From positions 2,750,501 to 2,814,500 of the forward strand of contig NZ_CP098747.1 in the NCBI RefSeq assembly GCF_023746535.1: 64,000 nucleotides of DNA, given 5' to 3'. Numbering within the stretch: the stretch's first letter is position 1; every line of letters starts with the position of its first letter. The stretch comes from Sneathiella marina. Lineage in GTDB: Bacteria; Pseudomonadota; Alphaproteobacteria; Sneathiellales; Sneathiellaceae. Shown here in pieces: positions 38 to 3,019 of the stretch. A model generated the notes under the pieces. It ran no database searches and had not been told where the DNA came from. It saw nothing but the letters and a program-made list of their open reading frames with translations. The position numbers and the translations under genes were made by a program.

Positions 38-355
38 ATGCCCTTGGAAACTCAAATTGCCTTGATAAGCACGATTACGGATAAACAACTCCAATTTCAG
101 GATCTTGGTGACGAAAATCTTGTTTGGCAACCCCCGCCACCTGAATTTCTGGAGCCCTTTAAATACCATCGTTGCCGGTGCTCCGGCCCCACCTCCGGGC
201 ATCAGATTGCCTTGAAATATGACGGATTAATATGCCGCATCGATGTGACAGCCTGGGGCGTATCATACCGTAAATCAACACCGAGTTTTCAAGATATAGA
301 GGTCATCCAGATCACGCAGACGGAACCTTACAGGCTGGAAATAATATTTATGTGA
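38..355 (+). CDS. Hypothetical protein, 105 aa
   Basis: I do not recognise this protein. A purine-rich ribosome-binding site (GAAGAGGAAGG) lies about 7 bases before the ATG, which supports expression. The product is soluble-looking, with a proline run near residue 32 and two Cys in a CRC triplet near residue 46. It has no signal peptide or membrane segment. About 160 bases of non-coding DNA separate it from the His-rich gene downstream. It could be an intact small protein or the remnant of a longer one, because what lies upstream is outside the window. Confidence 0.45.
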   Translation: MPLETQIALISTITDKQLQFQDLGDENLVWQPPPPEFLEPFKYHRCRCSGPTSGHQIALKYDGLICRIDVTAWGVSYRKSTPSFQDIEVIQITQTEPYRLEIIFM

Positions 356-518
356 TTGGTGTCTGAATAGTCTTCGCTGATAGCCTTAATTCTCGACTGC
401 ACTCCTTCATGAAATACGCATTTAGCTATCAGTTTTACTCACAAATACCCCGCCGCTGCGTCCTTAAGATATTGCCAACTAGACTTCCCGAAAAATTTCT
501 TTTTCAAAAGGAGAGATC

Positions 519-1514
519 ATGCAGCATCCACATGCCTACCACTACGACACGACGCCCAGTCCTGCCTTATACCATCACCATTATCACTACCATTATCATT
601 ATAGCTATTTGGCCCATCATAATTTCGGAAACACCGATGCCTCAGCCCATCCGCATCACCCATTGAAGCATCTCGCGCATGCTGAAAACCTCCACCCGCA
701 CCATTTGTACGCCCGTCATCCATATCATCTTAGTCCTCAGCCACAGTATACGCACGCTGCTCATTCTTCCCCGCAACATTATCATCAGTTGGAATTTCAA
801 TTTCAATATCCGCATACTGACAACGCACATCAATTGGAGAGTGCTGGTCATGTGCTTCATTTCAAAAAAATAATTGCCACCAGCGATACAACAAAAACAC
901 ATTGGGTTTGGCATATTACCGATCATAGGCGAACAGTTGTAAAAACCTCTGAACATATCCACAGTAGCTTTGAAGAATGCGTGAGAGATGCCCGGCATTA
1001 TCATACCAAACTGATCATCCAGCATCAGGATATTGAAAAAACCAGCTGGGCCTGGGTGGTCACTGACCATCATGGCGTTCTTATTAAAAAATCGACAACG
1101 ATCCACGCAACATTTGTCAAATGTGTGCATGATGCCCACCGCCATCTAACGGCGCATGACCATTCTTCCCTTGTTCCTTATCATCAGGCAGATCATGCCG
1201 GGCATACGCTACATTTCAGGAAAATCGTCGCAACAAACGATGCAACAAAAACCCATTGGGTATGGCACATCTGCAACCATCGAAAAGTCGTCATCAAAAC
1301 GTCTGAACATATCCATAGTAGGTTTGAAGAATGCGTGAAGGACGCCCGGCATTATGATACTAAACTGATCATCGAACATAAGGATATTGAGAAATCCAAC
1401 TGGGCCTGGGCGATTACCGACCATCATGGAATCCTCGTCAAAAAATCTACGACAACCCACGCGACATTTATTAAATGTATCGACGATCTTCACCATTATC
1501 ATGGGGACATTTAA
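519..1514 (+). CDS. Histidine-rich protein with duplicated YegP-like repeats, 331 aa
   Basis: No function is known to me. The N-terminal ~109 residues contain 27 histidines, including an alternating His-Tyr run at residues 19-28, with many Pro, Gln and Tyr. There is no signal peptide. Residues 110-211 and 228-329 are two copies of one module, about 70% identical by hand alignment with a period of 118 residues. Each module splits into two shorter units with the pattern W-x-W ... DH ... K-(T/S)-S ... H ... F-x-x-C-(V/I) ... D. This resembles the beta-beta-beta-alpha repeat of the DUF1508/YegP family, which also occurs in tandem, so four units are present. That fold assignment is inference. The ATG has a strong ribosome-binding site (AAAAGGAGAGATC), and a hairpin terminator follows the stop. 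His-rich segments often bind Ni, Zn or Cu, but no metal role is shown here. Confidence 0.8.
   Translation: MQHPHAYHYDTTPSPALYHHHYHYHYHYSYLAHHNFGNTDASAHPHHPLKHLAHAENLHPHHLYARHPYHLSPQPQYTHAAHSSPQHYHQLEFQFQYPHTDNAHQLESAGHVLHFKKIIATSDTTKTHWVWHITDHRRTVVKTSEHIHSSFEECVRDARHYHTKLIIQHQDIEKTSWAWVVTDHHGVLIKKSTTIHATFVKCVHDAHRHLTAHDHSSLVPYHQADHAGHTLHFRKIVATNDATKTHWVWHICNHRKVVIKTSEHIHSRFEECVKDARHYDTKLIIEHKDIEKSNWAWAITDHHGILVKKSTTTHATFIKCIDDLHHYHGDI
846..1511 (+). repeat. In-gene tandem duplication, ~354-bp period
   Basis: Two copies (about 846-1150 and 1200-1511) of a ~300-bp coding module lie inside the His-rich gene. They begin at the matching Gly-His codons 110 and 228. The protein copies agree at about 72 of 101 aligned positions, with conservative changes such as I/V, K/R and D/N, so the duplication is old and has been kept in frame. 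Confidence 0.8.
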
Positions 1515-1526
1515 CCGCATGAAAGT

Positions 1527-1565
1527 GGCATACGGCGGAGCATTACTCGCCGTATGCTGTGTTTT
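1527..1565. terminator. Hairpin terminator between convergent genes
   Basis: A perfect 9-bp inverted repeat, CATACGGCG (1529-1537) and CGCCGTATG (1548-1556), has a 10-base loop. It extends by a G-C pair and is followed by GTGTTTTT on the plus strand. It lies 14 bases after the His-rich gene stop and just beyond the gatB stop. The plus strand has the U-tract; the minus side has only a weak TTTC. Confidence 0.7.
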
Positions 1566-3019
1566 TAGGCATCCAGTTTCGGTTTCAGAATCTCCGTCAC
1601 AACACCAGGGTTGGCTTTTCCCTGTGTCGCTTTCATCACCTGCCCCATGAAAAAGCCGAACAACTTGTCCTTACCACCTTGATACTCGGCAACCTTATCC
1701 GGATTAGCGGAAATGACCGCGTCAATAGCGGCTTCGATAGCGCCGGTATCGGAGACCTGCTTCAATCCCTTTTCCTCAACGATATCTCCAGCCGCCTTGC
1801 CCGTATCGAACATTTCTTCGAACACTTCCTTGGCTATTCTGTTGGAAATCGTGCCATCAGAAATCAGATCAATTAAGGCTCCAAGAGCCGCGGCAGAAAC
1901 AGGACTGTCAGCTAAATTTTTACCAGTTCTATTCAGGTTACCAAACAATTCACCGATAACCCAGTTGGCGGCAAGCTTGGCGTCACGGCCTTCCGCCACC
2001 AATTCAAAATAATCGGCGACTTCTTTTTCCGCGACCAAAACACCCGCGTCATATGGGGACAGCCCTAATTCGCTGACAAACCTCGATTTTTTTTGATCCG
2101 GCAATTCAGGAAGTGTCGACTTGATTTTCTCAATGAACGCATCGTCAAACTCAAGCGGCAACAGATCCGGATCCGGGAAATAACGATAGTCGTGGGCTTC
2201 TTCCTTGGACCGCATGGAACGCGTTTCACCTTTGACCGGATCATAAAGCCTGGTTTCCTGATCGACACTGCCACCGGCCTCCAGAATATCCACCTGGCGG
2301 TTTGCCTCATACACAATGGCCTGCTGCATAAAACGCACTGAGTTGATATTTTTCATTTCGCAGCGTGTTCCGAACTCGTCCCCGGGACGACGCACAGAAA
2401 CATTAACATCAGCCCGCATGGACCCTTCATCCATATTGCCATCACAGGTACCAAGATAGCGGACGATACTCCGTATTTTTTTCACATAGGCCGCGGCCTC
2501 TTCCGGTGACCGCATATCCGGTTCAGACACGATTTCCATCAGCGCAACGCCAGACCGGTTAAGGTCGACAAATGTCTGGCTGGGATGTTGATCATGGAGG
2601 CTTTTGCCGGCGTCCTGTTCCAGATGAAGGCGTGTAATACCGATTTCGCGGCTTTCCTCACCTTTCAGATCAATGGTAATTTTTCCTTCACCAACAACCG
2701 GCTGCAAATACTGACTGATCTGATAGCCTTGCGGTAAATCCGCATAAAAATAATTCTTCCGGTCAAACACAGAGAACTTGTTGATCTTTGCATTGAGGCC
2801 GAGACCTGTGCGAACCGCCTGCTCTACTGCCATTTCATTAATGACGGGCAACATACCCGGCATCGCCGCATCAACAAAGGATACCTGTGTATTCGGTTCT
2901 GCTCCATACTTCGTATCGGAGCCTGAAAAGAGTTTCGAATTTGACGTTACTTGTGCATGGATTTCAAGGCCGATCACGACCTCCCAATCTCCGGTGGCAC
3001 CCTGTATAATCATTCCCAT
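1565..3019 (-). CDS. gatB: Asp-tRNA(Asn)/Glu-tRNA(Gln) amidotransferase subunit B
   Basis: GatB activates the side-chain carboxylate of misacylated Glu-tRNA(Gln) or Asp-tRNA(Asn) so that ammonia from GatA converts it to the amide. The family signature [13 protein letters not shown] follows the start. The core includes [17 protein letters not shown] and the [14 protein letters not shown] segment, and the C-terminal tRNA-binding YqeY-like domain ends in [16 protein letters not shown] place the start at 3019: the ATG follows GGAGGGGG-TAAT, whose purine tract lies over the end of gatA. An in-frame ATG at 3040 would add seven residues inside gatA and lacks such a site. Length (484 aa) is normal. 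It is the last gene of a gatC-gatA-gatB operon. Confidence 0.97.

Follow-up and report, generated by a model that had tools for sequence, protein, structure and literature searches.

The locus described here raises the question of what a protein may be that joins a histidine-rich head to a tandem of small repeats, and whether these repeats belong with the DUF1508/YegP proteins. Members of the DUF1508/YegP family occur in bacteria, archaea and phages and structures have been solved. The literature on the family (DUF1508/YegP/UPF0339) is thin: passages of one report term YegP uncharacterised and describe a YegP homologue that follows capK-capS in 57 cases, its role being left open (PMC13373217). 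No paper combining Sneathiella, or DUF1508/UPF0339, with histidine-rich proteins was found in the literature searched. The gene described here is a natural fusion, seen in one genus, in which a head dense in His is joined to repeats remotely related to DUF1508, the repeats being doubled in this genome. The features discussed below have the following positions in the window (the whole stretch of 64,000 nucleotides that was analysed):

7 to 10: -10 element CGTC of the promoter dyad of the 105-aa gene; the -35 element lies outside the window
38 to 355, forward strand: conserved 105-aa neighbour gene (MPLET...), no recognised family, preceded by the same promoter dyad
439 to 462, forward strand: promoter-like dyad TCACA-N15-CGTC, ECF41-like (-35 core 439-443, -10 core 459-462)
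509 to 513, forward strand: putative Shine-Dalgarno sequence AGGAG, from sequence reading
519 to 1514, forward strand: coding sequence of the His-rich tandem DUF1508-like protein, 331 aa (open frame, repeats, codon statistics)
519 to 845, forward strand: His/Tyr/Pro/Ala-rich head, residues 1-109, predicted to be disordered (composition, model pLDDT)
846 to 1148, forward strand: module A, two DUF1508-like half-repeats at about 846-1004 and 1005-1148 (repeats, hhalign, AlphaFold2)
1149 to 1199, forward strand: His-containing linker between the modules (residues 212-228 have pLDDT <50 in the full-length model)
1200 to 1511, forward strand: module B, a duplicate of A by its identity to A (half-repeats at about 1200-1358 and 1359-1508)
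1525 to 1566, forward strand: intrinsic terminator between the His gene and the convergent gatB (strong hairpin and T-run; fold z -3.5)

The His gene is a real coding gene under selection. In a within-gene comparison modules A and B differ at 21, 13 and 40 first, second and third codon positions, with dS of 1.42 and dN of 0.16, and the heads of four orthologues, where they can be aligned, likewise have a lower dN than dS (e.g. 0.20 versus 1.58). Long antisense ORFs over the gene probably arise because His codons read as Met/Val on the opposite strand. The strong ribosome-binding site and the terminator of the original prediction are both in place (AGGAG at 509-513, hairpin with T-run at 1525-1566), and its view of one gene carrying signals of its own finds support; a conserved ECF-like promoter dyad is now added to these signals. 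The terminator may serve both the His gene and the convergent gatB. The names gatB, recO and those of other housekeeping neighbours, like the Shine-Dalgarno label, are presumed assignments.

Residue counts bear out the predicted head of about 109 residues with 27 His and an alternating His-Tyr run, YHHHYHYHYHYHYSY; the entire protein has 62 His in 331 residues. At an assumed His frequency of 2.3% the binomial tail for 27 His in 109 residues is 3e-20. Block means of pLDDT over the head are 31-45 in the full-length model, which is itself poor (pLDDT 54, pTM 0.26) and was not usable for a fold search. All six orthologous proteins found, this one included, have such a head, which is 84-148 residues long and contains 21-35 His; its sequence drifts and its composition stays high in His (19-34%), Pro (10-23%) and Tyr (7-12%), the densest stretch holding up to 15 His per 20 residues. 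None of the six has a hydrophobic segment of 19 residues (top mean hydropathy 0.87), and the protein is presumably cytosolic.

Behind the head, the two modules of about 70% identity, spaced by 118 residues and each splitting in two, were confirmed: 72 of 100 aligned residues are identical between A and B, the starts lie 118 residues apart, and the halves of each module align to each other with BLOSUM62 scores of 115 and 99 against maxima of 52 and 50 in 500 shuffles. The four-unit layout stands for this genome and not for the other five proteins (189-253 aa), each of which combines a His-rich head with one two-unit module and lacks module B. Apparently a duplication in this lineage gave rise to the four-unit form, and one module is probably a pseudo-dimer of a small DUF1508 protein. 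Among the 14 half-repeats available the W-x-W, a His and a Cys are invariant, and 14 of the 19 columns invariant across the family fall in the module.

How close these repeats stand to DUF1508 was approached by profile comparison. The proposed search with the Pfam DUF1508 model (PF07411) was run and matched none of the six proteins at E<=1; nor did the NCBIfam HVO_2922 model (NF041908, cut-off 90) match any of P0001-P0006 at E<=1, and the repeats passed no Pfam or NCBIfam cut-off. Weak rows for BLUF, PTS_IIA, DUF2255, CT795 and others in the same scans were far under their cut-offs and were set aside. No other named family thus passes its cut-off, and the His head is present in 6/6 proteins, so neither result speaks against the original description. 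Three of three proteins scanned matched PHROG 9303, whose function is uncharacterised, at E 7e-5 to 2e-4, a weak match covering 34-35 residues of the last half-repeat, and a PDB sequence search returned nothing below E 0.36.

A link emerged through short DUF1508 proteins of Sneathiella, of which three out of three scanned pass the PF07411 cut-off with about two thirds of the model covered. The module profile weakly picks such proteins in other Sneathiella genomes (E 0.001-1), and one weakly matched short protein of the own genome exceeds the DUF1508 cut-off; the short paralogue of this genome scores 35.6 against NF041908 (cut-off 90). When the 14 half-repeats were aligned by hhalign with 15 short Sneathiella DUF1508 proteins, the result was a probability of 93.4% (score 35.7, E 2.5e-7), compared with 11.7% (score 17.7) for the best of 100 column shuffles and 0.6% for the reversed control. 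With four YegP halves the half-repeats gave 0.67%, i.e. no detection. The W-x-W strand and the later Cys, which precedes the unit end, align between half-repeats and short proteins, and the upstream dyad is common to both genes; the invariant His of the half-repeats aligns with a Tyr of the short proteins. From these alignments the repeats are best described as a remote relative of DUF1508 at the superfamily level, not a member, and they resemble the single-domain HVO_2922 branch more than the two-repeat YegP. The label "YegP-like" therefore survives as remote DUF1508 kinship (93.4%) and fails for the YegP halves (0.67%) and PF07411 (0/6). With the HVO_2922 family (NF041908; structure 6q2z) the protein shares the WxW strand and units of about 50 residues; it differs from HVO_2922 and the short DUF1508 proteins in its two or four fused units, in His for Tyr and in the His-rich head. 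YegP/UPF0339/DUF1508 proteins (PF07411; 2k8e, 2k49, 3bid) likewise carry tandem units in one chain, but E. coli YegP is without a His head, and neither HMM search nor profile comparison with YegP halves detected kinship. Over the class, DUF1508 matches above cut-off occurred at 18 places in 240 genomes, in frames of 63-158 aa.

From an alignment of seven sequences that included no DUF1508 protein, AlphaFold2 gave a module model with pLDDT 89 and pTM 0.81; the mean pLDDT of the remaining four models is 61-73. Against 999 chains, VIA-align ranked HVO_2922 (UPF0339) at the top (Z 5.6, 54 residues, 2.3 Å), with 2k49 (Z 4.5) and 3bid (Z 4.4), both UPF0339, at ranks 6 and 8; unrelated folds reach Z 4.7, inside the difference of 1 that the tool treats as a tie with HVO_2922, so that the top row is a near-tie and the match taken on its own is no more than suggestive. 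Sorted by E-value, the Foldseek list is headed by endonuclease V, with HVO_2922 at rank 4 (E 0.068, prob 0.93); the leading PDB entries, endonuclease V, reverse transcriptase and RNase H, were read as common strand-helix geometry. In BFVD uncharacterised phage proteins came out on top (best E 1.4e-3), and proteins annotated DUF1508 stood at ranks 8, 23 and 31.

The His gene was found in 6 of 24 Sneathiella genomes (5 of 23 congeners besides the genome of the window), S. chungangensis KCTC 32476 being one named carrier among the orthologue records. It was not found in the other 18 and is therefore dispensable. A convergent gatB follows it in all six, and the 105-aa gene with recO precedes it in five; the sixth contig starts at the gene itself. 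In eight congeners that lack the His gene (L046, L048, L049, L050, L051, L053, L054 and L066) a single locus carries both the 105-aa gene and gatB, and no His gene separates the two. In a midpoint-rooted FastTree phylogeny of recO and the 105-aa protein from 21 of the 24 genomes (G004, G008 and G017 were left out, recO or the 105-aa gene being incomplete) the carriers are scattered through one clade with mixed branch supports, a pattern that would fit one gain followed by repeated loss. Outside the genus, no convincing relative appeared in a class sample of 385 genomes, where three rows with E of 0.003-0.008 were rejected (two had internal stop codons and one lay in a 1,389-aa frame). Of the 25 genomes in the order search one belonged to a different genus, and it gave no match; in the phylum sample the single match among 398 genomes was the own genome; phage and plasmid records gave no match at E 0.01 and viral contigs none. 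An earlier scan of genome contigs with the window protein alone returned 67 stretches and no relative, and a one-motif scan returned 20 stretches with five relatives, all on contigs of the known congeners. Among the genomes sampled the fusion of a His head with DUF1508-like repeats was thus seen only in Sneathiella.

The 105-aa neighbour has a match in 23 of 24 genus genomes and no recognised family in Pfam and NCBIfam scans. Four of its sequences that were read have a C-x-C and a third Cys, a possible metal site. In congeners (e.g. L046-L054) the slot between the 105-aa gene and gatB has, about 20-50 nt after the former, a presumed FNR-type box, TTGAT-N4-ATCAA or near it. Behind the box lies a small ORF, about 38 aa long, whose product has a single membrane-like segment (..REAAYIFxFPVLMLIWAVQSY); at E<=0.1 this ORF has a match in 20 of the 24 genomes, in some a very weak one. 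Neither the box nor the small ORF was found in the slot of the window's genome. FNR control of the His gene was considered and not adopted: a perfect TTGAT-N4-ATCAA lies upstream in four carriers but ahead of the separate small ORF, and the window's slot has no box. In S. chungangensis (L039 and L045) the His gene has ahead of it another, incomplete copy of the gatB 3' end, joined to what is left of the small ORF, which is a sign of earlier rearrangement at the slot.

When aligned, the five His-gene loci with upstream DNA prove to have a single dyad in common, TCACA-N15/16-CGTC, 63-82 nt ahead of the start codon, with a spacer of 15 in four and 16 in one; apart from the copy at 439-462, neither strand of the window holds an exact match. 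A dyad of this kind common to all five arose in none of 300 shuffles, which ignore the kinship of the five regions. TCACA-N15/16-CGTC also stands before the 105-aa gene (21 of 22 genomes) and before the short DUF1508 gene (16 of 17), and the one exception in each set reads CGTT; the two-repeat YegP gene of the own genome is without it. These counts omit L042 (contig begins 34 nt upstream), L066 (contig end) and the missing 105-aa gene of G008; L030 and L033 are without a DUF1508 frame, and L009 and L035, being the same gene, enter as one. As a control, 377 mechanical ORFs with a length of at least 150 aa were examined, and none had the dyad ahead of it; two shorter ORFs in the control stretches (L094, L104) do carry it; a tenth of the own genome holds 8 copies, 6.1 being expected. 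Parts of the ECF literature give the ECF41 promoter consensus as TGTCACA-n16-CGTC (PMC3426412) and describe an ECF41-type promoter as used for RpoE9 in S. meliloti (PMC3616915). The conserved dyad resembles this motif in its -10 CGTC, its -35 core TCACA and the spacer of 15-16, with CGTC at 16±1 at all five His-gene sites, but the first two bases of the full -35 TGTCACA are never both kept (ACTCACA, TCTCACA, CCTCACA, CCTCACA, GATCACA). In S. meliloti, 20 kb of unannotated pSymB sequence, chosen as the expected place of rpoE9, gave one motif match, before an ABC transporter-like ORF.

Taken together, these features suggest a candidate role, to which we assign a probability of about 0.4, as an ECF-controlled cytosolic buffer of metal or protons on a DUF1508 scaffold. 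An ECF-type sigma factor would switch on the His, short DUF1508 and 105-aa genes under stress; the DUF1508 tandem, whose repeats (doubled in this genome) are described as ββ(β)α, would give a stable scaffold; and the head would bind and buffer a surplus of divalent metal ions (Zn, Cu or Ni) or of protons. Hpn and the heads of HypB are His-rich metal-binding proteins with dense histidines in a flexible stretch. The His head is like them in this respect, but is fused to DUF1508-like repeats, in a genome where neither urease nor NiFe hydrogenase was found. No metal-homeostasis gene was recognised by eye among the neighbours, and the rough, presumed metal-regulator patterns tried were absent upstream except for one loose palindrome in L040. 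The head may instead serve a pH response or phase behaviour. The fusion and the dyad it has in common with the bare small version offer two handles on the family, the sigma factor and what the head adds, and induction of the His gene by metal or acid stress would point to a role for the whole DUF1508/YegP family.

A competing view, possible though in our judgement doubtful, takes the DUF1508 tandem as the working part of a stress protein, binding protein or nucleic acid, with the head as a disordered tail responsive to pH or crowding and metal binding incidental. The short paralogue, which lacks a His head, carries the same dyad, the module holds most of the invariant columns, every head is rich in Pro and Tyr as well, and part of a study of zinc-treated E. 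coli lists YegP among stress-linked proteins (PMC10734530). Against this, the retention of His at 19-34% in all six heads, with its dense stretches, seems to exceed what a generic disordered tail would need.

A nickel-storage or maturation accessory for urease or NiFe hydrogenase, as with other His-rich nickel proteins, is in line with the composition and with the presence of urease alpha in 19 of 24 genus genomes and 5 of 6 carriers (in G008 as a fragment). It is nevertheless very unlikely, because no urease was found in the four-unit carrier genome, which is 99.8% complete, and NiFe hydrogenase was found in 0/24 genus genomes. Just as little probability attaches to a cell-surface or secreted protein, adhesin or extracellular metal binder: the surface role was put forward by the original prediction alone and went unsupported, a hydrophobic N-terminal segment being seen in none of the six proteins. 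We find it barely credible that the ORF is spurious, or that the head is just the outcome of low-complexity drift in CAT/CAC repeats. Short tandem repeats of CAT/CAC units do occur in the heads of L039, L040 and L041, with CATTAT units in that of the window, and the head is hard to align; against drift speak the third-position bias and a dN lower than dS, seen in the modules as well as in alignable heads, the mixture of both His codons, and the conservation of the dyad and of the position beside gatB.

A short DUF1508 gene was detected in 2 of 6 His-gene carriers versus 15 of 18 non-carriers (Fisher p 0.04), in related genomes and by a search that was marginal and unequal across them (PF07411 was run on few). 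That the His gene swaps for the short one is a lead only. It would fit a rather improbable wider scheme, in which one clade adds a His-rich double-unit version, perhaps replacing the short one, to a small ECF-type regulon of the short DUF1508 and 105-aa proteins, maybe tied to the production of R-bodies, whose gene run in the same genome has the dyad and an ECF sigma gene next to it; the head would then be a sensor or buffer of pH or metal within that response.

The two shorter dyad-bearing ORFs of the control stretches were inspected separately. L104:19464-19742 (minus strand) is an orphan ORF of about 91-93 aa with the dyad 34-40 nt upstream and no Pfam match at E<=0.1. L094:15331-19426 (own genome C1:1835331-1839426) is an R-body gene cluster, with seven RebB-like ORFs recognised by eye and PF11747 over its cut-off in two of three scanned and below it in one. 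The first gene of the R-body run, L094:17317(-), has TCACA-N16-CGTC with the CGTC about 66 nt before its ATG. An ECF-type sigma gene adjoins this cluster, and P. aeruginosa is known to have a reb cluster that comes with a sigma factor of its own (PMC8322103).
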